Below, piece by piece: positions 5,407 to 46,305 of a stretch of 54,859 nt of DNA (position 1 is the stretch's first letter; each line of letters begins with the position of its first letter). Made by a program: the position numbers and the translations under genes. The notes below the pieces were generated by a model. That model searched no databases and had not been told where the DNA came from. It saw only the letters and a list, made by a program, of their open reading frames with translations. Origin of the DNA: a virus; IMG/VR virus record IMGVR_UViG_3300021077_000076, positions 1-54,859 of that record; one strand, written 5' to 3'.

Positions 5407-6858
5407 TCACAGGGTCATCTGGGTGACCCAAAAGGTGCCGACGGCCCGCAAGGTGTTTGAGACCGAGCTGGCCACCAAAAGTAAGATCGCTGCGACCTGG
5501 CCGCTGAAGTAGCCAAGCTTCTCCAACTCGAACGTCCGAAGCGGTAGACCGTCGATTGGCGCAATCCAATCCGTCACTATCACGCTGCTGTCAGCAAGAA
5601 TCATTGCAAACATAAACGCGTCTGTGCTGGGATCGATCGGTCCCACGGTCACCAGGCCCTGCCGTACCATCCAAGCGGATCCGGTCGGCGGCGCGAGTAC
5701 GAAGGCCATGGTTCCCGCCGGGTCTGCCACCACTTCGCCAACCCCACCAAGGCGCATGCTGTTCTCGACGTAGGTATCGAACTGGACCCCGCCCGCGCGC
5801 TTCACCCGGGCCTCCTCGCTGATCGCATGCAGAGCGGCCGTCAACGACGGCGCGAGCCCGATGTCCGGAAACCCCCAAGCTTGGTCATCGCAGAACGTAT
5901 CGTCACCGTAGCAGCCAGACCCGTCTGGCTCGGTCAGCTGACCTGCCACCGCAAGCCTGAAGTAGGCGCGGCCTTGTCGAAGGTCGGGGACCTCAAGCGT
6001 GCGAAACGGCTGCTTGCCGGTCAGGTCGTCACCAAGGGCGTCGTCGCAGAAGTCAGATTCTGCGAACAGAGAATCGGCAAAGACGAGCTCAAGCTCCATC
6101 CTCGCGGCGTCGCTGGACTGGTCCCGGTAGGGTTCGACCATGTACGTGTCCGGGAGCTGGCCCTGCGCCCCGTGGACCGCCTCCTGAATCGCCTTGGGTG
6201 TGGCGGCCTCTGGAATCAGCCTGACCCGCAGCCGGTACGCCTCTCCATCCTCGCCCGCCTGTCGCCGACAGCCCCGCTCGTCACCGTGCATCGACAGCCA
6301 GTCCATCTCGGCTCCGGTGACGGCGGTCGCAAACCCATAGGTGGTGTACCCACCCGGGCCTAGGATGACGTCGCTGACGCTGTCCAGAACCGCCGTGCTG
6401 AGCGGATCGATGATTGCGTCCACTGGGTCGCCTGGTGCCAGCACATCGTCAAAGACTGGGTCGGTGGTATTGGCCAGGTCAATCTGTCGAACTGTCCGCA
6501 GGGGCAGTAGGATGCTCGTCTGGTGGGCCGCCACGGGAACGTCAAGCGCCACCAGCAACTGAACGCCTCGCGCGTCAACGAACATGAACCCCTTGGGGAT
6601 CAGCGCCGTGGTCGTGAGATCAGGCCTGGTGATGGTCAGGTCGCAGGATCCTGACCTCCCAGTGGGCGCCGTGGAGATGGAGCACGCCTCCACCTGTTGC
6701 ATCACGGCCTTGCTCGTCGCTTCGGCGATGGCCAGCTTGGCGTTGATGATTGCCGCGCCGTCGGGAGTCGCCATGAAGTCCGACAGCCAATTCTCATCGC
6801 ACGTGCGGCGAAGCAGGGCCAAGCCATCGGCCTGAGTGAGGGGGCCGGAGTCACTCAT
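5407..6858 (-). CDS. Second baseplate J-like protein
   Basis: A 483-residue protein whose middle (about 205-230) contains YRLRVRLIPEAATPKAIQEA. This resembles the central region of Baseplate_J/gp47 wedge proteins, where a Tyr-Arg-x-Arg helix precedes the partially conserved domain. It is translationally coupled to the preceding, more typical gpJ homologue (stop at 6855 inside this start). Two adjacent J-like genes are common in large baseplates. The assignment is by partial motif and neighbourhood. Confidence 0.6.
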   Translation of the reverse strand: MSDSGPLTQADGLALLRRTCDENWLSDFMATPDGAAIINAKLAIAEATSKAVMQQVEACSISTAPTGRSGSCDLTITRPDLTTTALIPKGFMFVDARGVQLLVALDVPVAAHQTSILLPLRTVRQIDLANTTDPVFDDVLAPGDPVDAIIDPLSTAVLDSVSDVILGPGGYTTYGFATAVTGAEMDWLSMHGDERGCRRQAGEDGEAYRLRVRLIPEAATPKAIQEAVHGAQGQLPDTYMVEPYRDQSSDAARMELELVFADSLFAESDFCDDALGDDLTGKQPFRTLEVPDLRQGRAYFRLAVAGQLTEPDGSGCYGDDTFCDDQAWGFPDIGLAPSLTAALHAISEEARVKRAGGVQFDTYVENSMRLGGVGEVVADPAGTMAFVLAPPTGSAWMVRQGLVTVGPIDPSTDAFMFAMILADSSVIVTDWIAPIDGLPLRTFELEKLGYFSGQVAAILLLVASSVSNTLRAVGTFWVTQMTL

Positions 6859-20963: not shown

Positions 20964-21623
20964 TCAGTTGAGAGGTTTATTGAGCGCTCTCCATTCCTCT
21001 GGAGTTCGCGCGTTTTTACTTCGGTTGCATGTACCGCAGGCTGGAACAATGTTCTCAGCGGTAGTTCCTCCACCCCTGGAAACTGGTATGACGTGATCTT
21101 GTTCCATCTTTCCACTGGTTCCGCAGTAGGCACAGCGCCCCTGATACAGTTCGAGGATCGCCGCCCACTGTTGCACCGTTAGGGTGGCAAGGGAATTGGC
21201 CAATCTAGCCCTTCTCCGATTCCCTACTGTACGGACAATTTCACGTACCTTTTCCGGATTTGCCGCCCGCCATCGCGCATTGCTTGCCTTTACTTGTTCA
21301 CGGTTCTGCTGATAGTAGAAGCGTTGCTGGGCAAGAATGATTTGCTTACGTTTCTGATATGACGCTCGGGCCTTCTCACGACATTCATCTATGCGCTCCT
21401 CTCTTTGTTTTTTGGCCCTCTGACATCGTTCTTTCAGATGTGCCCTGGACCATTCGAGAGATCGCTTTTTGTTCAGCTCTACGTATTCAGCCGACTCGCG
21501 ACGTTTTTTCTCCTTGATCTGCATGCATTCCGCACAGTACGCGCTGAGTCCGTCACGCCGAGACGCGTGCCGACGAAATCCCTCCTTCGGCTTATCTCGC
21601 TTGCATGATGGACAGTGCTTCAT
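20964..21623 (-). CDS. HNH homing-type endonuclease
   Basis: A 219-aa protein with an N-terminal zinc knuckle (CPSC at 4-7, paired with CAEC near 30), a long basic coiled region and a C-terminal HNH nuclease. The nuclease has CAYCG, the catalytic QDHVIP, a GG-x-x-x-x-x-N segment and CGTCN. The DNA is clearly less GC-rich than the flanking virion genes. It interrupts a structural operon, both hallmarks of a free-standing homing endonuclease that arrived by transfer. Confidence 0.88.
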   Translation of the reverse strand: MKHCPSCKRDKPKEGFRRHASRRDGLSAYCAECMQIKEKKRRESAEYVELNKKRSLEWSRAHLKERCQRAKKQREERIDECREKARASYQKRKQIILAQQRFYYQQNREQVKASNARWRAANPEKVREIVRTVGNRRRARLANSLATLTVQQWAAILELYQGRCAYCGTSGKMEQDHVIPVSRGGGTTAENIVPACGTCNRSKNARTPEEWRALNKPLN

Positions 21624-22060: not shown

Positions 22061-22300
22061 TCAGGCGACCTCCTCAAGCTGCACGCCCTGCGAGATCAGG
22101 GCCTTGATGTCGTACCCGTGACTGGAGATCGTCTTGCCCTTGGTCAGCGTGTAGCAGCTTCCACCGCGCGCAATCTGAGCCTCTTCCTTCACTCGGAAGC
22201 GCTTCTCTCCCGTGCCAGTGCGCATTGACTGCTGCACGGACGGCTGGGTCTCTTCGCTGCGGTTCTGCTGATTGTTGTTCTGCTGGTTCGGGTTCGCCAT
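22061..22300 (-). CDS. Small hypothetical protein after capsid RNA
   Basis: A 79-aa protein with an Asn/Gln-rich N-terminus and a compact C-terminus (FRVKEEAQIARGGSCYTL). The C-terminus resembles the short Lys/Gly-rich proteins often found next to phage capsid genes. The RBS AAGGAGAACGTC precedes the ATG. It is the first gene after the structured RNA element, so its translation could be affected by that RNA. Confidence 0.6.
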   Translation of the reverse strand: MANPNQQNNNQQNRSEETQPSVQQSMRTGTGEKRFRVKEEAQIARGGSCYTLTKGKTISSHGYDIKALISQGVQLEEVA

Positions 22301-22331
22301 GACGTTCTCCTTGATTCCACGAGTGGAAAAG

Positions 22332-22666
22332 TAGACCAGACGGGAGTCAGAGTGGGTCAGGACGAACGACTGAAGTCGATGTCCTTACCATAGCGCTAAC
22401 GCGGCTAGGAGCGTACACCACAAGACTACCCGTCTGGCGTCGCAGACATGAGCGGGTAGGGCCGAAGCCCGCCGTCAACGTGAGCGACAATGGCAGACCG
22501 AAGTCTGCCGCAAGGTCGGAACGAGTCCGACCAGTAATCGAAGGTCCGAAGACCAACGATTTCAGTCCAGCCGAAGCTGGACAGAACCTTCGCGGGCACA
22601 CCCCCGCCGTCGTATGGACGAACGGCGAGGATGATCGGCTCCGCATTGTGGACCTTTCGGCGATCA
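22332..22666 (-). ncRNA. Structured RNA downstream of the major capsid gene (no family recognised)
   Basis: This is the largest stretch without a convincing gene. On the minus strand it folds, by eye, into a chain of hairpins. They are at 22632-22666 (6 bp, containing the capsid stop codon), 22602-22630 (9 bp with a U-G wobble plus 3 bp), 22561-22586 (7+3 bp, cUUCGg), 22537-22560 (4+4 bp, cUUCGg), 22514-22532 (7 bp), 22492-22509 (7 bp, cUUCGg) and 22459-22470 (4 bp, cUUCGg). A second domain is closed by 22336-22344 with 22429-22437 (9 bp). It encloses 22352-22355/22418-22421, which encloses hairpins 22359-22385 and 22388-22409. G-U wobbles and UUCG loops point to the minus strand. A frame crossing the first part was considered but has no RBS. 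Confidence 0.7.
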
Positions 22667-24028
22667 ACTTCCGTGGACACACACGCTGGCGCGCTTGTAG
22701 GTCGCCGGGCTGCTGGTCGCCGTCGCGTCGGTCGGGATCGCCCAGTCGCCTGAGAACGACCACGCGGCCGAGGTCGTCTGCTGGAGGCGATCCATCGGGG
22801 CGCGGAGGATGAGGCGGATACGCTCGGTGAGGATCTGCATGCCGCCGTTGACGACCGAGAACTCGCCGATCTTGCCCTGCACGCCGGATTCAGAGATGTA
22901 CTTCGACTCGTCGAGGAACTTCTCTTCAATGGCGCCCTGGCCGGTGACGATCGGGCGGTGAAGAACCACGCCCGCCGGGTTGGTGGTCTCGAACGCGGTC
23001 GTGAAGCCGTCCACCGGGTCTTCGTTGACCGTCGCGGTCGTCGGGCACTCGTTGTTGCGATAGACGGTCGCGCCCAGCAAGAACGCGATGGCGAACTTGC
23101 GATAGTGGATGTAATCGGGCATCGACTGGTTCAGCCGCTGAAACTCGTTGTCGCCGAAGATCTGCGACTGCGAGATCGGGTCGAGGTGATAGTGGTACGT
23201 CCCGTCCTCGTGGGTCGGCACGTTGTCGAACTGCAGCTGGGCGATCTGGGCCCGGATGTCGGCCATCCGGAACTGGTCGGTCGACGCGACGTCATCGACG
23301 CGCGTGCCGCCGCCCGAGTAGACAATCTGCGAGCGGTTGACCGCGAGCACTGCCTGGCGGTCGAGCGTGGTCACGTTCGCCGTGAGGGTCAGGGTACCGC
23401 TGTGGATCTCATCTCCCGCGATATCGGAAGTGAAGCCAGTGCAGGTATAGGCCACTCCGTTGACTGTGATCGACAGCGGGTTGGATGCGCTGACGATGGT
23501 CGGGCGGCCATTGAACAGCTTGCGGGTGAATCCCGCGAGGTTCTTCACCGGCATCGCGGTCCCAGGACCGTAGGCGCCATTGGCCACGGTGTTGCCCGCG
23601 ACGTAGCAGTTGTACAGCTTGTCGCGCACACCGCGGTTGATGCTCTGCCCAGCGTGGACACCGAGCTGATGCATGTTGCGCAAATACTGAGAGGCCAGCG
23701 TCACGTAGCTGGTCGGCATGTGGGTGTCGATTGAGCGTCCGTACTGCTGCGCCGTCGCTTCCCACTGTTCGATCGGGTACTGGACCGTCGGCACTTCCGC
23801 GTTCGGATTGATCGGACGCGTGGTTGGTGCGATGAGGCCCGCCCGGGTGAACGTCTGATTCGCTCCCAGGTTCACCGGCCACAGCTCCGCCACGGCCTCC
23901 AGCCGGAAGAGCAGGCGCGGGAACAGAGGGTCGCGGAATGTCCGTTGCAGCGTCCGGTCCTGAATGGCCGAGACGACGCCAGCGTTGAAACTGGTGTTGA
24001 CGATTGAACCGTCGGGGAAGTTTGCCAT
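22664..24028 (-). CDS. Major capsid protein
   Basis: A 454-aa protein starting MANFPDGSIV, preceded by the scaffold gene's promoter-proximal neighbour set and followed by the structured RNA. Features are a helical N-arm (LQRTFRDPLFPRLLF), a P-domain-like region with LGVHAGQSINRG, and a C-terminal segment (IRLILRAPMDRLQQTTSAAW) ending in the ATYKRA-type tail common to HK97-fold capsids. Size and location fit. The 122-bp gap upstream contains AGGAGCTGACC as RBS and no clear promoter. Confidence 0.85.
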   Translation of the reverse strand: MANFPDGSIVNTSFNAGVVSAIQDRTLQRTFRDPLFPRLLFRLEAVAELWPVNLGANQTFTRAGLIAPTTRPINPNAEVPTVQYPIEQWEATAQQYGRSIDTHMPTSYVTLASQYLRNMHQLGVHAGQSINRGVRDKLYNCYVAGNTVANGAYGPGTAMPVKNLAGFTRKLFNGRPTIVSASNPLSITVNGVAYTCTGFTSDIAGDEIHSGTLTLTANVTTLDRQAVLAVNRSQIVYSGGGTRVDDVASTDQFRMADIRAQIAQLQFDNVPTHEDGTYHYHLDPISQSQIFGDNEFQRLNQSMPDYIHYRKFAIAFLLGATVYRNNECPTTATVNEDPVDGFTTAFETTNPAGVVLHRPIVTGQGAIEEKFLDESKYISESGVQGKIGEFSVVNGGMQILTERIRLILRAPMDRLQQTTSAAWSFSGDWAIPTDATATSSPATYKRASVCVHGS

Positions 24029-28535: not shown

Positions 28536-28609
28536 GGCTTCCTCATTGTGCGTTTGGAGTTGCTTACTTTTCCAGATGACCACAGATCGGGCATGGTTCG
28601 GGTAGCCAT
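28532..28609 (-). CDS. 25-residue peptide (small ORF)
   Basis: A basic 25-aa frame beginning MATRTMPDLW. AAAGGAG lies upstream of the ATG, and the stop overlaps the next gene's ATG (ATGA). A conspicuous hairpin precedes it. It may be a genuine micro-protein or a translational coupler controlling the 140-aa gene. Confidence 0.45.
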   Translation of the reverse strand: MATRTMPDLWSSGKVSNSKRTMRKP

Positions 28610-28623
28610 CTCCAGGTCTCCTT

Positions 28624-28690
28624 TGTGTGTCCTTTGGGTGAATCCCTGGACACACGTATTGTTGATCACTTCTGGCCGTTTTACGCCAGA
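28624..28690 (-). promoter_or_regulatory. Two tandem stem-loops in a 5' leader
   Basis: TTCTGGC/GCCAGAA (7 bp, 8-nt loop, 28669-28690) and GTGTGTCC/GGACACAC (8 bp, 28624-28654, with an inner GGG/CCC) occupy the gap after the minor head gene. The second stem ends a few bases before the AAAGGAG of the 25-aa frame. Neither has a U-tract, so an mRNA control or processing element is more likely than a terminator. Confidence 0.5.
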
Positions 28691-28721
28691 ACAGTTTTCG
28701 GCCCGACGCGATACGTCTGGG

Positions 28722-29633
28722 CTACAGCCCGCGCGGCATTCGAGGGTCGACCGGGCCAGAATGCGCGGGGGCGCCGTGATAGTCGGCCCGCCAGGGGATG
28801 GAGACCTCACGATCGTTACTTCTGTTCGGGGGCTGGAGGTACTCCACGCGCTCGACGCCGCCACCCTTGACCGGCTTCATCCAGACGAAGGGATGATCGA
28901 ACGGAACCGTTTGCCCATTCAGCTGCTTCGAATCGTCCCCGGTGCGTTGGTCGAACGTGGCGACTAGCCGCTTCATGAGTCCAGGCACCTCGTGCGCTAC
29001 CTCGTGCAGGCTGCGCTGGTTCGTGACGCCATAGGCATACGCACCTTCGGTCCGAACAATTCGCTCTGCCCTGTACCGCTCGTGGTCGAAGATCCCGCCC
29101 TTCGCGGCGATGCGGTTCACGGTCTGGTCGACGCTGTCCCCCCTGATCATCGAGAGCGCGAGCTGGTTCCGCACCCGCTCGATCGTCGGCATCGGGTAGT
29201 TGCCGACCAGCTTGTGATATCTCATCAGCAACGTTGGCTCGATTCCACGGTACACCCGCGCGAACACGCCGGCCTCTTCGAGCCGCAGCACGGGCTCAGC
29301 CCCGGAGAACCGTTTCTCGAATGCCTTGATTGCTGAAACAACATGCCGCTGGGCGAGCGTCGCGGTGGCGAGACCGTTGTTGTCAAGCTGGGTGGCCAGG
29401 CCAGACTGGAAGACCTTCAGGCCATCGCGCACCTGCAGCAGCACCTGGCGCAAGTGGAACGCCGTGAAGCTCTGGTCCTTGCCCGCCCGCCGCAGGCCCG
29501 CCAGCTCAGCTTCGAGCTCGGCCCGCACGGTCTCGTAGAGGGAGCTCACTTTGCGGACGCCGCCCAGCTCGATCACGCCTTGCAACTGAGCGCGGTGGAG
29601 ATTTATCACCTGGGCAACGATAGATGAGGGCAC
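28722..29633 (-). CDS. SPP1 gp7/Mu gpF-like minor head morphogenesis protein
   Basis: A 303-aa protein. Near residues 185-215 it has RAERIVRTEGAYAYGVTNQR, the signature of the phage Mu F-like/SPP1 gp7 domain (a-R-x-I-a-R-T-E-x-x-x-a). Upstream helices are preceded by a Q-L-A-L-S-M-I-R-G segment typical of this family. Such proteins bind the portal and enter the capsid with DNA. It lies downstream of the portal and upstream of the capsid genes, as expected. Confidence 0.82.
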   Translation of the reverse strand: MPSSIVAQVINLHRAQLQGVIELGGVRKVSSLYETVRAELEAELAGLRRAGKDQSFTAFHLRQVLLQVRDGLKVFQSGLATQLDNNGLATATLAQRHVVSAIKAFEKRFSGAEPVLRLEEAGVFARVYRGIEPTLLMRYHKLVGNYPMPTIERVRNQLALSMIRGDSVDQTVNRIAAKGGIFDHERYRAERIVRTEGAYAYGVTNQRSLHEVAHEVPGLMKRLVATFDQRTGDDSKQLNGQTVPFDHPFVWMKPVKGGGVERVEYLQPPNRSNDREVSIPWRADYHGAPAHSGPVDPRMPRGL

Positions 29634-33750: not shown

Positions 33751-34745
33751 TTGACTATGGCACCATTTAGACGTCGCTCAGCAATGGCAACGTACTCGGG
33801 ATTCAGTTCAACGCCCACGAACCTTCGCTGCAAGGCCAGGGCTACCAAGCCCGTGGTCCCGGCTCCGAGAAAAGGATCGAGCACGAGGGATCCGGTTCGG
33901 CTTGCAAGCCTGATACACGGATCGACCAATGCCGGTGGGAAAGTAGCGAAGTGGGCTTCCGGAAATGGCCGGGTATTGATGTCCAGAACAGACCGAATAT
34001 TCCTGTCGTTAGGACCGCGAACGGAGGAAGAATCGTAATAGTAGTGAGCTTGCTTGCTGAACAAGAACACATACTCGTGGCTTCTCGTGGGGCGATCCTT
34101 GACACTCTCGGGTTGACAGTTTGGCTTGTTCCAGATCAGATCTGTTCGCAAGTACCATCCCGCCGCTTGGAGGGCAAAAGCCAGACGCCAAGGGACACCG
34201 ATTAGGTCCTTCGGCTTCAGCCCTTCGGGGGTTGGAGGGCGGATGTTCATCGCCCGCACAGGGTTCTTCTTATCCGGTGCGCGCCACGTGCGACCACCCG
34301 ATGTGTAGGAATCGCCTATGTTCAACCAGAGCGTCCCATCATCGCGCAGCGTTCGGTATACCTCATTGAAAACCGCCACCAGACTCCGCAGATAGTCCTC
34401 TAGCGACTCCTCCAGCCCGATTTGGCCCTTGATGTGATAGTTGCGAAGCGACCAGTAGGGGGGAGATGTGACACAGGTCTGAAAGACGCCACTAGGCATC
34501 TTGGCGAGAAGTTTCTGGCTATCCCCGATTGCAAGCAGGGACGCCCCGTCAGCCGATTTGAAATAGCGAGTCATCTGATCCCCGGAAGGATCGCGAACGA
34601 CACAGACGCTCGGCCCAGGGGCAGGGCGCCTAATGATTTTGCTGGCGACAGTTGGCAGCGTGAGTTGGTGCACAACCTTCGTTATCGGCGGTGACCTTCT
34701 GGAAGTTGCTGACATCTGTGACGGCATTCCAATTCGTGTTTCCAT
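33747..34745 (-). CDS. Beta-class DNA methyltransferase (probably N4-cytosine)
   Basis: A 332-aa product. Catalytic motif IV TSPPYW (about 93-98) precedes the SAM-binding motif I DPFLGAGTTG (about 290-299) and the following VGVELNPEY, the order of beta-class enzymes. TSPPYW is the form seen in N4-cytosine methyltransferases. WLNIGD and LRTDLIWNKPN are further family segments. The ATG at 34745 was chosen because a promoter lies 6 bp upstream (leaderless); MTRYFKSADG at 34574 is an alternative start. It heads a coupled gene chain. Confidence 0.85.
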   Translation of the reverse strand: METRIGMPSQMSATSRRSPPITKVVHQLTLPTVASKIIRRPAPGPSVCVVRDPSGDQMTRYFKSADGASLLAIGDSQKLLAKMPSGVFQTCVTSPPYWSLRNYHIKGQIGLEESLEDYLRSLVAVFNEVYRTLRDDGTLWLNIGDSYTSGGRTWRAPDKKNPVRAMNIRPPTPEGLKPKDLIGVPWRLAFALQAAGWYLRTDLIWNKPNCQPESVKDRPTRSHEYVFLFSKQAHYYYDSSSVRGPNDRNIRSVLDINTRPFPEAHFATFPPALVDPCIRLASRTGSLVLDPFLGAGTTGLVALALQRRFVGVELNPEYVAIAERRLNGAIVK

Positions 34746-34751
34746 GATCAA

Positions 34752-34780
34752 AGACTAACCGATCTTGTGGTGGTTGTCAA
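34752..34780 (-). promoter_or_regulatory. Leaderless-type promoter of the methyltransferase
   Basis: On the minus strand TTGACA (34775-34780), a 17-bp spacer and TAGTCT (34752-34757) lie 6 bp before the ATG at 34745. The -35 overlaps the stop codon of the upstream gene. The layout matches that of the plus-strand HTH gene. Confidence 0.45.
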
Positions 34781-35079
34781 CCGGATAAGCATGCTAGCAC
34801 TGATGTTTGGTACTTCCCGTGAGGATAATCCGGTAATGGTGGCGAACGAGTGACTGAGATGGGAGGCGGGGCACTCCCGCCTTTTCCCATCTCTTTGATC
34901 TCTCGCGCCTTGCCTTCGGCGATCATCTTCTTGGCATCTTCGGCGCGATGATACCGAATCGCGCGGATCACACCGCGCGCGGTATGAACATCAACCTCAA
35001 CCGGAACCAGCCCTGGCGCTGCACGCATCGCGAGTCGCTTGCGCTGTTTACGTTTCGCCCAATCGCTAAAGTCTCTCAA
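34777..35079 (-). CDS. Small hypothetical protein with WAxR N-terminus
   Basis: A 100-aa basic protein with a TTG start (MRDFSDWAKRK) preceded by GGGGGG. It overlaps the portal stop (TTGA). A middle segment (VDVHTARGVIRAIRYHR) is strand-helix-like. Its N-terminus resembles that of the Pro-rich protein at 30104-30646. Function unknown. Confidence 0.5.
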   Translation of the reverse strand: MRDFSDWAKRKQRKRLAMRAAPGLVPVEVDVHTARGVIRAIRYHRAEDAKKMIAEGKAREIKEMGKGGSAPPPISVTRSPPLPDYPHGKYQTSVLACLSG

Positions 35080-39506: not shown

Positions 39507-40703
39507 TTAGACGGACTTGCCGTCTACCGTCACGCCGATCCCGGTCCCGGTCACCACGATGGTCCGGGTGGTGGGCGGGGTGGGCGTTGGGGTGGGAGTG
39601 GGCGGCGTCGGGGTGGGTACGGGCACCGGCTGCAGGGAGCCCAGCAGCTTGGTCACCACGGGCACGCCCAGGCCGGTACAGCAATCGTAGCCAGACTTAG
39701 CCACGTAGGTCCCGTTGTTGCCCGAGGTGATGTCCCGCATGGCGCCGGCCGCCAGAGCGTAGATAGCCGCCGATAGGTTGCCGACGTTCGCGCCCAGGGT
39801 CGCGGACAGGTACGCCGCGATGGCCGCCCACATGGGCGCAACCGCGCTGGTTCCACCCACCACGGTGGGCCCGCTCGTCGAGTCCACGACGATGTTCCAG
39901 CCGGTGTTGGGATCCGCGCAGCCCGCGACGTCGGGGACGCCGCGCATCTTGTTGCCCGGAACGCCGGCCTTCGCCTGGTAACTCGGCAGGGAGAACTTCG
40001 CGCTCACGCCTCCGCCAGTCGCGCCGCCCGAGCTGCCGTCGTTCCACACGACCTCGGAATTGGGGGACAGCGATGGCAGGCTGGTGCCGCCGCATCCGAC
40101 CACGTTGGGTGACGATGCCGGGAAGTCCACGTGCTTGCCCGTCTCACCATCGCTCGAACCGTTGTCGCCAGCCGCACAGGTGACCGTGATGCCGGCAGCC
40201 GTGGCAGCCTGAAATGCGTTGTTGAAGGCCGTGATCGAAGCAGAAGGCCAGTCGTCTTCCGGCCCGCCCCACGAAATAGAGATGCAGTCCATCTTGTCCG
40301 TGATGGCCTGCTGGATCGCCGCCAAGAAGCCGTCGTCCGTATTGGGAGCCATGTAGCAGTGCAGTGCCGCGCCGGGGGCCATGCCTCCGACCACGCACAG
40401 GTCGAGCATGACCTCCACGTAGTCGCCTGCCGTATCGCCCGGCTGGTTGGTCGCTCCGCTGATCGAGTGGAACACCACCGGTGCCACCGCAGGATAGCCG
40501 AGCGACTTGAAATAAGCTGTCAGGACCGCCTGGTCAAAACCGCCCCCGAGCTCGATGACTGCAATCTTCTTGCCCGCGCCAACCGCCGCGCTCATCGGTA
40601 GTCCGTAGAAGGCCGCGAGCTGCTTGGGCGTGTAGTTGACCCCCGTGACGTGGGAGCGGATGCGCGAGAACTTGTAGTATGGGCGAATCTTCAGTTTCGA
40701 CAT
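39507..40703 (-). CDS. Sedolisin (S53) serine-carboxyl peptidase, kumamolisin-like, no propeptide
   Basis: A 398-aa protein closely following kumamolisin-type catalytic domains. The Glu97-x3-Asp101 pair (VEVMLD), the oxyanion Asp180 (AAGDNGS), the nucleophile Ser286 in GGTSAVAP and a C-terminal Ca-site region (DITSGNN, CTGLGVP) are all present. ISISWGGPED and GRGVPDVAG-like segments also match. The ~170-residue inhibitory prodomain of secreted sedolisins is missing and there is no signal peptide. The C-terminus adds a Pro-Thr repeat linker and a short strand-like tail, suggesting display on a particle. Confidence 0.88.
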   Translation of the reverse strand: MSKLKIRPYYKFSRIRSHVTGVNYTPKQLAAFYGLPMSAAVGAGKKIAVIELGGGFDQAVLTAYFKSLGYPAVAPVVFHSISGATNQPGDTAGDYVEVMLDLCVVGGMAPGAALHCYMAPNTDDGFLAAIQQAITDKMDCISISWGGPEDDWPSASITAFNNAFQAATAAGITVTCAAGDNGSSDGETGKHVDFPASSPNVVGCGGTSLPSLSPNSEVVWNDGSSGGATGGGVSAKFSLPSYQAKAGVPGNKMRGVPDVAGCADPNTGWNIVVDSTSGPTVVGGTSAVAPMWAAIAAYLSATLGANVGNLSAAIYALAAGAMRDITSGNNGTYVAKSGYDCCTGLGVPVVTKLLGSLQPVPVPTPTPPTPTPTPTPPTTRTIVVTGTGIGVTVDGKSV

Positions 40704-41361: not shown

Positions 41362-41527
41362 GGATGATCTTCTCGAAGGCCAGGTCGAGCTTCTGCGCGA
41401 CGTCCCGCCGGGGCAGGACCTCGGCCGCCTCGATGCGGGCCAGCTCCCGGATGCTGACGCCGGAAAGCTGGGCCATTTCCCTCTGGCCGACGCCGAGGAT
41501 TACGCGGAGGAGCTTGATGGCGAACAT
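41315..41527 (-). CDS. XRE/Cro-type HTH regulator
   Basis: A ~70-aa protein. The helix-turn-helix REMAQLSGVSIRELARIEA has the Q-x-x-x-A-x-x-x-G-x-x pattern of the XRE family. A second helical part (RRDVAQKLDLAFEKII) follows. A longer form from GTG 41557 is possible, but the ATG at 41527 lies 7 bp after a promoter-like element and inside a 9-bp dyad. That fits a leaderless, self-regulated gene. Confidence 0.7.
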   Translation of the reverse strand: MFAIKLLRVILGVGQREMAQLSGVSIRELARIEAAEVLPRRDVAQKLDLAFEKIIHGRAARASMARSCLR

Positions 41528-41564
41528 CTGGCAGTAATCTGCCAGATTCGTAGCCACCGGTCAA
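41526..41564 (-). promoter_or_regulatory. Promoter with overlapping operator-like dyad of the XRE gene
   Basis: TTGACC (41559-41564), an 18-bp spacer and AGATTA (41535-41540) precede the ATG at 41527. A perfect 9-bp dyad, ATCTGGCAG-4 bp-CTGCCAGAT (41526-41547), is centred on the -10-like element and reaches the start codon. Binding there would block both transcription and initiation. Confidence 0.4.
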
Positions 41565-41570
41565 TCCCCC

Positions 41571-41615
41571 AAAAAAGGAGTAGCCCTCACCGGGAGGACC
41601 AATCTCGGTGAGGGC
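41571..41615 (-). terminator. Rho-independent terminator
   Basis: On the minus strand GCCCTCACCG pairs with CGGTGAGGGC (10 bp, 13-nt loop). A TTTTTT run (41571-41576) follows 6 nt after the stem. It ends the small transcription unit of the 67-aa gene and insulates the XRE gene. Confidence 0.85.
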
Positions 41616-41655
41616 CCAGAAGGACCACGAACATGCAGGACCTATGCTGCCACGG

Positions 41656-41859
41656 TTAGGCGGCGTCCGTCAAGTCGCGCAGTAGGGGCCGCTCGACGCT
41701 CGTCATCCTGGCTGGGTCAGAGAAGACCAGCTCCTGCTCTGCGATGATGGCGGCCCGCTTGGCGCGAATCTCCGCCAGCGCCTGGGCGCACGCCTGCTGC
41801 CCGCAAACGCAAACCTTATCCCGGACGACACTCCATCTCAGCTTTTCCGCAGTTCCCAT
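41656..41859 (-). CDS. Small hypothetical protein with CxC motif
   Basis: A 67-aa helical protein with VCVCGQQAC near the N-terminus. It has its own upstream promoter-like sequence and a strong terminator downstream, so it may be expressed independently of the late operon. Unknown function. Confidence 0.5.
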   Translation of the reverse strand: MGTAEKLRWSVVRDKVCVCGQQACAQALAEIRAKRAAIIAEQELVFSDPARMTSVERPLLRDLTDAA

Positions 41860-44569: not shown

Positions 44570-44829
44570 CAGGCCCGCCCCCGGTTGAAGTGGCCCGGCT
44601 TGATCTTGGCGTGGGTCATGGTCTCGGCCAGCGTTGCGCCCGAGGCTTCTCCGATCACCCTCTCGACGTCGAGGCTCAGCAGCTCTTTCCACACCTCGGA
44701 CCGGCTGTCCCGGTAGCCCTGGCAGAAGTCCTCTAATTCGGAGACGACGTCATCACCGTGGCCGGGCGGCATGGCTTTGAAGGCCTTGATGAAGTCATGG
44801 ATAAGCTGGTAACGGCTGAACTTTCTCAA
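44569..44829 (-). CDS. Small hypothetical protein
   Basis: An 86-aa helical protein with a TTG start chosen because GGAGG lies 7 nt upstream. Contains VVSELEDFCQGYRDSRSEVW. It overlaps the metallopeptidase gene by 35 bp. Unknown function. Confidence 0.5.
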   Translation of the reverse strand: MRKFSRYQLIHDFIKAFKAMPPGHGDDVVSELEDFCQGYRDSRSEVWKELLSLDVERVIGEASGATLAETMTHAKIKPGHFNRGRA

Positions 44830-46183
44830 GTTGGTCCTCCTGTACGATCACGACCGGTGGCGGACTCGCGACCTCTAGCCGCGCTGCTATAACCAACCAC
44901 TCGATATTTTCGAACTGTGCCGCAATGCCGAGGTGCTTGCCGATGCCGTAGTCCAGGGCATAGCTATGCGTGAACGTATCGATCGCCAGCAGCACCCGGC
45001 ACTCCGCCGGCACCGCCCCGTTGCCATCGATCATCGCGTTCTGCATCCGCCCACGGCGGTCATCCCAGAGAGTCAGCGCCCAGCCTTCCGAGCTGGCCGC
45101 GCAGCAGAGCCGCAGGTCGAGGAGGTAGGACTCCCACGAACCCCACGTACGCGCGACCTCCATCAGCAAGCGCTCGCTCGGCGGGGCGTCTGGGGTGGGT
45201 CCGGCGAAGCGTCCGAGCTGGGCAAAGTGCGCCTCGTGCAGGACCACGGCGTTGTAGGCGGCCGGCTCCTGGCGTAGCAGCTCGGCGTGTTCGCTCCATC
45301 CCGTGGGGGTCATCAGGGGCGGCGCCGCGGTACCGATGTCGAGCGCAGCTGCCACGGTGCGGGTTTCCATCTGGTACGGTTCGCGCCGCCCGAGGTAGGT
45401 GTTGACGGCCGCGCCGCTGAACTTTCCCGCCGCCCAGCAGGCCTCGACATACTCCAGCTTGCGCAAGGCCACCGGCCACTCGGCGTACTGCTGGCGCCAG
45501 TTGCTCGCGGGGTCGAGCCAACACGCGAAGGTCTCCGCCCAGTCTTCGTCGGGGTGCTTCTGAGCGTAGTGGGCCCTCACCCCCACCAGGTACTCGACAA
45601 AGTCCCGGCTGCCTTCCGAGGGCGTGAAGTCCTCGCGGTACGGCGCCCGGCTATCGCCGAAGACATCCTGCCAGCCAGCCTCACGCCAGAGCTCGAACGC
45701 GTAGCAGAGAGCGTGCCCGGCCTCGTGGCGAAGGGTGCGGAACATCTCCTCGGGCGTGTAGGCGGCGCGGGCGCTGCGATTGGCGAGTCGCCAGAGGGTC
45801 GGGTTGGCATAGGGCCAAGGGATATTGATGCTCACGGCCCGGTCTGCCGTCCAGAAGTCATCGCCGTTCGTTCCGAGATACCAGGCCGGACGAAAGACGA
45901 TCCCCCGGGCCGCCAGGTCGTTGCTGACCGTCTGCAGACACTCGGCCAGCGTTCCGACCGGGCGCAGGTCGAGCTTCGCTACCGGCGTGCGCAGCAGGGC
46001 CTCGGTCGTGGCGTCGCTTGCCGGCGCGTTTGCGGCCCGCCATTCCACCACCGGGTAGGCAGCCTCGATCGCGTTCAGGCGGTCGACAGCCTGCCGATAG
46101 AGGGCCAGGTGTGCCGCGAGAGCGCGATCGCTGATACCACGAAGACGGCCGAGAAGGTACGAGTAGTCGATGGGCTGGATCAC
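44795..46183 (-). CDS. Zincin metallopeptidase fused to a superoxide-dismutase-like domain
   Basis: A 462-aa product from a GTG that overlaps the upstream micro-lipoprotein stop (GTGA). N-terminal half: LRHEAGHALCYAF with the zinc ligands His153 and His157 and catalytic Glu154. A likely third ligand is Glu217 in EDWAETFACWL. This pattern matches the putative zinc-binding metallopeptidase family Peptidase_Mx. C-terminal half (about 290-440): LHEAHFAQLG, WGSWESYLLDL, GWALTLWD and LLAIDTFTHSYALDYG with Asp402-x3-His406, resembling Fe/Mn-SOD. Two metal sites in one phage protein are unusual. A lysis-region or virion role is possible. Confidence 0.78.
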   Translation of the reverse strand: MIQPIDYSYLLGRLRGISDRALAAHLALYRQAVDRLNAIEAAYPVVEWRAANAPASDATTEALLRTPVAKLDLRPVGTLAECLQTVSNDLAARGIVFRPAWYLGTNGDDFWTADRAVSINIPWPYANPTLWRLANRSARAAYTPEEMFRTLRHEAGHALCYAFELWREAGWQDVFGDSRAPYREDFTPSEGSRDFVEYLVGVRAHYAQKHPDEDWAETFACWLDPASNWRQQYAEWPVALRKLEYVEACWAAGKFSGAAVNTYLGRREPYQMETRTVAAALDIGTAAPPLMTPTGWSEHAELLRQEPAAYNAVVLHEAHFAQLGRFAGPTPDAPPSERLLMEVARTWGSWESYLLDLRLCCAASSEGWALTLWDDRRGRMQNAMIDGNGAVPAECRVLLAIDTFTHSYALDYGIGKHLGIAAQFENIEWLVIAARLEVASPPPVVIVQEDQLEKVQPLPAYP

Positions 46184-46305
46184 AGACAGAGTTCCCTTTC
46201 GTCGCACCAACGATCGAGCGCCGGCTCGCCCGGCCAGCGGGGCTGCTGCTTGGGTGGACGGCAGCCCACAAGAACCAGGACCACGACCAGCACGAGAAGC
46301 CTCAC
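46180..46305 (-). CDS. Micro-lipoprotein, o-spanin-like candidate
   Basis: A 41-aa frame from GTG 46305 (GTGA overlap with the papain-like gene stop) to TGA 46180 (GTGA overlap with the metallopeptidase start). Residues 2-14 are a hydrophobic signal ending in the lipobox LVGC at Cys15. The mature part is 27 residues, Pro-rich (RPPKQQPRWPGEP), with two further Cys. Size and composition resemble Rz1-type outer-membrane spanins. Confidence 0.6.
   Translation of the reverse strand: MRLLVLVVVLVLVGCRPPKQQPRWPGEPALDRWCDERELCL

Follow-up and report, generated by a model that had tools for sequence, protein, structure and literature searches.

A conserved structured RNA family with a pseudoknotted three-way junction precedes a small gene downstream of the major capsid gene in soil phages

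The pRNA of phage phi29 is a small structured phage RNA linked to head function, Mu-gpT-DE is a structured motif located next to a phage capsid gene, and the put RNA of phage HK022 is composed of two short stem-loops. The put RNA is a phage leader RNA that acts on early genes (PMC9378689). The EAR/epsC RNA of the Bacillales is a pseudoknotted structured RNA found upstream of the genes of long operons and acts on transcription elongation (PMC2864571). ROOL and GOLLD are ornate structured RNAs of large size that occur in phages, usually near tRNA islands, and have no known function (PMC12286853). In the tisB mRNA, a pseudoknot is needed for standby translation (PMC7708055).

A structured RNA was identified in the IMG/VR virus record IMGVR_UViG_3300021077_000076, in which the whole stretch of DNA analysed (54,859 bases) is referred to here as the window. 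The RNA (22332-22666) lies on the minus strand, as do all other window features given below, between the major capsid protein gene (22664-24028) and a 79-codon gene (22061-22300). The capsid protein (454 aa) matches PHROG 1357, major head protein (E 1.8e-8), and is 35% identical to its annotated counterpart in Streptomyces phage Kromp. The 79-aa small protein has a homologous C-terminal domain in every member of the RNA family described below, but gave no match in Pfam and PHROGs; its gene carries a Shine-Dalgarno-like AAGGAG (22307-22312). Two genes downstream of the start of the small gene is an Endonuclease VII/HNH endonuclease gene (20964-21623). Other genes of the window encode a 398-aa protein with a subtilase (Peptidase_S8) family match (39507-40703) and a 471-aa protein, unusual in a phage, with a putative zinc metallopeptidase domain (residues 155-233) and an Fe/Mn superoxide dismutase C-terminal domain (residues 345-443) (44795-46210).

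The minimum free energy of 22332-22666 is -162.4 kcal/mol, which lies below that of every one of 100 dinucleotide shuffles (-124.2 ± 5.4; z -7.03). The record-wide background of 273 minus-strand 335-nt windows (15 shuffles each) has a mean z of -0.35 (sd 1.21) and a lowest value of -4.1. Three of these windows, 34601-34935, 28601-28935 and 41401-41735, reach z values of about -3.9 to -4.1 with 15 shuffles and are possibly further structured stretches. A tRNA search of the region was negative, and an Rfam 15 scan of the window, with a library including EAR/epsC, ROOL, GOLLD, phi29 pRNA, riboswitches and ribozymes, gave no match at the gathering threshold; a scan of the region and five relatives at a relaxed E-value gave chance-level matches only. 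A protein-coding reading of the stretch was rejected, as the differences between L002 and L005, two of the relatives introduced below, are spread evenly over codon positions (15/10/12) and stop codons break the frames across members.

The capsid protein and its alignment were used to scan IMG/VR for relatives (capsid identity about 36-100%), and in many of these the stretch after the capsid gene is a visibly diverged form of the same RNA. The 164-nt 3' part of the RNA (window 22490-22327) of four close copies, L002-L005, was used as the seed, with the structure assigned by hand; L002 and the window are non-independent copies, as the L002 capsid protein is identical and the core score is the same. 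The models used were a covariance model of the four seeds (R1), a 12-member covariance model (R2) and a sequence-only model of the four seeds (R3). Over 80 sources (789 kb), R1 matched L006, L013, L011, L008, L010, L036, L007 and L009 with E-values of 4e-18 to 0.025. Each of these matches has the capsid gene on one side and the following small gene on the other, and the remaining matches had E > 1. In the comparison with R3, R1 matched these eight and also L022, with E-values of 7e-19 to 0.004. All E-values are rough because the calibration was shortened.

The relatives recovered by R1 are 40-50% identical to the four seeds. R3 misses L007, L009, L011 and L036, places L022 wrongly and gives L006 16.6 bits, compared with 78.4 bits for R1; as R1 finds what R3 loses, detection depends on base pairs. 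A covariance model from homologous loci, the check that the sequence-only reading had proposed, recovers diverged relatives in a structure-dependent way. R2 extended the family by L022, L023 and L042, and the RNA is present in 15 IMG/VR phage records (soil phages), with one copy per record and no second copy found within any of them. A degenerate DNA pattern run over 2.9 million viral contigs returned four known members and 12 chance matches that do not fold alike. Among cultured phages, only distant capsid relatives were found (Kromp, 35%; Komagataeibacter phages, 28%), and no RNA was detected in Kromp or phiKX1. The search of bacterial genomes yielded one distant capsid relative without the RNA at that locus, and a DNA similarity search in phages and plasmids gave no match.

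The 5' stem region of the RNA (22594-22666) includes the capsid stop codon. The sequence-only reading had placed a first hairpin here; the region does fold, but it is the least conserved part, and the number and sequence of its hairpins vary between relatives. It is followed by an array of four local hairpins (22491-22593; about 22586-22561, 22560-22537, 22532-22514 and 22509-22492), three of which have C(UUCG)G loops. In the four closest copies, the array contains 8 pairs with compensatory changes and is 98.4% paired (0/500 shuffles), while the hairpin count at this position varies from about 0 to 4 among other relatives, with none in L009.

The family core is the 3' part of the structured stretch (22327-22490, 164 nt), and the minimal unit is about 165 nt long. 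It comprises a domain A and a three-way junction B, which encloses an H-type pseudoknot and, except in L042, a second hairpin, and has a long closing stem followed by a U-rich tract. Domain A (22439-22488; helices 1-3 of alignment A8) is an internally looped stem. Its cap is a C(UUCG)G hairpin, which has a conserved bulge (UAC/CAC) on the 3' side and is the fourth of the four such hairpins noted from the sequence, all of which are present. The three helices of domain A are 86.7, 88.6 and 93.3% paired over 15 sequences, and 15 of the 16 pairs show both-side changes in at least one sequence. The closing stem B1 (5' arm, 22424-22438; 3' arm, 22335-22348; helix 4) covaries at 14 of 14 pairs. The inner stem B2 (GUGG, 22418-22421; CCAC, 22352-22355) is 98.3% paired over the 15 sequences and covaries at 4 of 4 pairs. 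Hairpin B3 (22388-22409; CC-UAGC/GCUA-U-GG with a bulged U; helix 6), the second stem of the pseudoknot, is 94.4% paired with 4 of 6 pairs covarying. Hairpin B4 (22360-22384; helices 7-8), in which 8 of 8 pairs covary, is absent from L042, the most distant member. The U-rich tract lies directly 3' of B1 (CUACUUUU; 22327-22334), with a 4-nt lead-in in the window.

The following elements of the earlier description are present and covary: the 9-bp helix (22336-22344 with 22429-22437) with the pairs that extend it past a bulge, the inner stem of 4 bp, and the two hairpins that this stem encloses. An alternative state in which 22429-22437 would pair with an upstream stretch had also been proposed; pairing of this B1 arm with domain A or with upstream sequence is no better than that of shuffled arms in 11 of 12 members, and such a two-state switch is unsupported beyond the nearest copies. 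By eye, a candidate contact is formed by a conserved CAAG before the first hairpin and a CUUG near the third. A pairing of the conserved UACC bulge of domain A with the B3 loop was dropped, as it fails in several members.

The three-way junction with two hairpins was correctly described in the sequence-only reading, but the first of the hairpins is not plain. The junction strand just 5' of B3 (ACGC, 22411-22414) pairs with the B3 loop (GCGU, 22399-22402), and the linker lengths are compatible with a classical H-type pseudoknot. The corresponding strands are UAUCGC/GCGAUA in L006, UCGC/GCGA in L011, CCCG/CGGG in L009 and CGCG/CGCG in L010 and, by eye, CCC/GGG in L007 and L008, CGUG/CACG in L036, CACG/CGUG in L022 and CGCU/AGCG in L023. 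A pseudoknot of at least 3 bp was found at constrained positions in 9 of 9 lineages (loop exchange between members, P 0.002; letter shuffles, 0/5000), and in fixed alignment columns it is 70.0% paired, compared with 57.8 ± 3.5% after shuffling (0/500) and at most 48% in slid versions; these statistics are somewhat generous, as the pseudoknot was found by inspection after alignment.

Base pairs of the core are maintained by compensatory changes throughout the family. In the four seeds, both sides changed in 13 pairs and a single side in none. Among the 12 members, the proportion of paired cells is 91.5%, compared with 64.0% after shuffling; compensatory changes occur in 42 of 48 pairs, and the covariation score is 0.751, compared with 0.239 ± 0.020 for shuffled alignments. 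The values for the 15 members are 90.9% (61.4% shuffled), 45 of 48 and 0.747 (0.216 ± 0.018 shuffled), respectively, and the structure slid by 1-3 columns leaves 34-45% paired. Model alignments flatter the structure, as they are fitted to it; in a hand alignment of 12 members, 10 helices were 98.4% paired, whereas exchange of 3' strands between members lowered pairing to 55.7% on average and 63.7% at most. Aligned identity between lineages is 36-55%. As the fold, including the pseudoknot, is kept while the letters change almost completely, the folded RNA itself must do a job. The sequence-only reading had claimed that the minus strand encodes a structured, functional RNA and had named a conserved protein in this stretch or a lack of covariation as grounds for giving that claim up; neither was found, and the folding energy together with the very strong covariation strongly supports it. 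The RNA is a conserved, non-coding, structured RNA family.

The RNA lies in the sense of the late genes, and its core precedes a gene of one small-protein family in 15 of 15 records, this gene opening the segment after the capsid gene. The distance from the end of B1 to the start codon of the small gene is 10-40 nt, whereas the distance from the capsid stop codon to the core is 86-1994 nt. Inserted between the capsid gene and the RNA are a terminator and an HNH-like gene in L003, a small frame in L010, a coiled-coil-like frame in L036 and three frames in L022, one of them ATP-pyrophosphatase-like. Adjacency to the capsid gene, which the sequence-only reading had emphasised, is misleading, as in some records intervening genes part the RNA from the capsid gene and leave it beside the small gene, its constant neighbour; this close association with the small gene is in part to be expected, since the short gap has little room for insertions. 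The inserted L003 gene (6420-7300) encodes an HNH-like zinc-finger protein and has the capsid terminator on one side and the RNA on the other, and similar post-capsid frames occur in L010, L027 and L037. The gene inserted in L022 (4806-5699) is PAPS-reductase/ATP-pyrophosphatase-like and carries an SGGKDSAAM motif.

One fully supported group of 26 in the capsid tree holds 14 of the 15 rows with the RNA, L042 being placed outside it; within this group no copy was detectable in L014/L015, L024/L027 and L026/L034/L035. From this distribution, the element seems to be old, inherited vertically and lost several times, unless some copies have diverged past detection. L042 contains about 500 nt of very strongly structured sequence between the capsid and small genes (6345-6853; MFE -289.9 kcal/mol for 616 nt from 6345), and the core match is confined to the last part of this stretch. 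Post-capsid RNAs seen by eye in L016 (1665-2000), L019 (6480-6710) and L025 (6393-6603) have a B-like domain with a long closing stem, a CCC/GGG pseudoknot and a GGGGUUA loop and no recognisable domain A. They are possibly a second subfamily and were left out of the member count, as none of them is matched by the models.

The 12 nt after B1 contain a mean of 6.5 U over the 15 members, compared with 1.9 for the loci as a whole, and are U-rich in every member; six of them (L008, L010, L011, L013, L022 and L036) have a run of U6 or longer. With about 75 nt inside it, B1 does not resemble a simple terminator. The tract is weak (CUACUUUU) in the window and the copies closest to it, and L042 has it at a distance from the stem; the function common to all members may therefore be something other than termination. 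Where relatives lack the RNA, the capsid gene is usually followed by a plain hairpin resembling a terminator. L003 and L009 have a simple terminator behind the capsid gene and then, ahead of the RNA, a promoter-like TTGACA sequence (P 0.05 and 0.01, respectively, by shuffling), and these are the only two records with a convincing promoter-like sequence upstream of the RNA. The short gap between the RNA and the small gene is too small for a second promoter.

The RNA is best read as the putative leader of a head-completion operon, because the spacing from B1 to the small gene is constant, the distance to the capsid gene is variable and two copies have their own promoter-like sequence. The U-rich tract and the leader position suggest transcription control at the boundary between the capsid and head-completion genes, and control of transcriptional read-through would be the likeliest mechanism. 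The nascent RNA would fold as the polymerase came through, whether out of the capsid gene or off a promoter a short way upstream. B1 and the U tract would then act as a large intrinsic terminator or pause, the strength of which would be set by the pseudoknotted fold, itself tuned, if at all, by a phage protein or the polymerase. The resulting read-through would fix the ratio of transcription of the head-completion and tail genes to that of the capsid gene. We assign a probability of roughly 0.4 to this cis-acting (intercistronic) leader, in which B1 and the U tract serve as a terminator or pause set by the fold. Against it, a conserved, mutually exclusive antiterminator pairing is absent; a rigid aptamer controlled by a ligand is possible. 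Among the options offered by the sequence-only reading, a control element for downstream expression fits best, although the link it drew to the capsid gene misled.

As a translational or mRNA-processing leader, a tentative alternative, the pseudoknot and the U-rich strand would form a ribosome standby site, a repressor site, an exonuclease block or a processing site at which the capsid mRNA is parted from the downstream mRNA. The constant spacing of 10-40 nt, the U-rich tract ahead of the start codon and the pseudoknot of the tisB mRNA as a precedent (PMC7708055) are in its favour, and no Shine-Dalgarno sequence is found between the RNA and the start codon in L007 and L008; an ordinary one is present in most members, however, and the U tract often has the place and make-up of a terminator tail. 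The ordinary stable hairpins and terminator expected of GC-rich DNA, which folds readily, with simple terminators at this position in the RNA-less relatives, would require no specific conserved fold. This explanation is extremely improbable given the 45 of 48 compensatory pairs, an architecture that stays fixed at 36-55% identity between lineages and the conserved pseudoknot.

An autonomous RNA device of the late programme in place of a passive leader, which would either modify its own polymerase in the manner of put or EAR or be released for head assembly, is a rather doubtful prospect taken as a whole. The released form would be a separate non-coding RNA with its 3' end at the U tract, acting in head assembly or packaging or free like ROOL and GOLLD, and it is unlikely. 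It would fit the self-contained unit of promoter, RNA and U tract in L009 and possibly other records, the single copy per record, the location in the head gene cluster and the compact pseudoknotted fold, but the RNA is always beside the small gene (15/15 records), the pattern scan of viral contigs gave only known members and chance matches, and related phage lineages lack a detectable copy. Processive antitermination, in which the RNA would bind its own polymerase and allow read-through of later terminators of the late operon, is less probable still. The RNA has a pseudoknot, is located between genes of a long series and, in L003 and L009, lies close to a promoter-like sequence, and put and EAR provide existing examples (PMC9378689, PMC2864571); its own 3' end, however, is terminator-like, and it has no Rfam match. 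The reading preferred here remains that of a leader that would govern read-through into the head-completion genes.

The output of capsid and head-completion genes is very unequal, and its control is poorly understood in most phages; a conserved pseudoknotted RNA at the boundary makes this question testable. The fold is defined well enough for mutational testing, because the covariation is exceptionally clear, and the covariance model and the minimal unit allow searches of other phages and of metatranscriptomes. To our knowledge, no other RNA family is fixed at the start of a head-completion gene in a broad group of tailed phages.

The sequence-only reading had drawn a parallel with Mu-gpT-DE, but no Rfam family matches, and the present RNA is tied to the following gene and not to the capsid gene. 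The phi29 pRNA likewise differs in that the present RNA is without an Rfam match, and any packaging or virion role of it would be hypothetical. ROOL and GOLLD resemble it as large ornate phage RNAs, but are longer, have another structure and usually lie near tRNA islands (PMC12286853), whereas the present RNA, again without an Rfam match, is tied to one gene position. Like the put RNA, it is a putative phage leader that may act on its own polymerase; put, however, acts on early genes (PMC9378689), whereas a three-way junction with a pseudoknot precedes late head genes here. EAR/epsC shares the pseudoknotted structure and the location upstream of long-operon genes (PMC2864571), but occurs in other hosts and with other genes, and the present RNA lacks an Rfam match and ends in a terminator-like tract. 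The tisB mRNA is similar in having a pseudoknot upstream of the start codon and a single strand nearby (PMC7708055), whereas its standby site lies about 100 nt 5' of the ribosome-binding site, which is sequestered, and the phage RNA ends beside the start codon. Structured pseudoknotted leader RNAs of phages are a known kind; the present family, its architecture and its fixed place are new as far as tested, in comparison with Rfam, a 2010 motif survey, a 2025 paper on ornate RNAs and the put and tisB papers.
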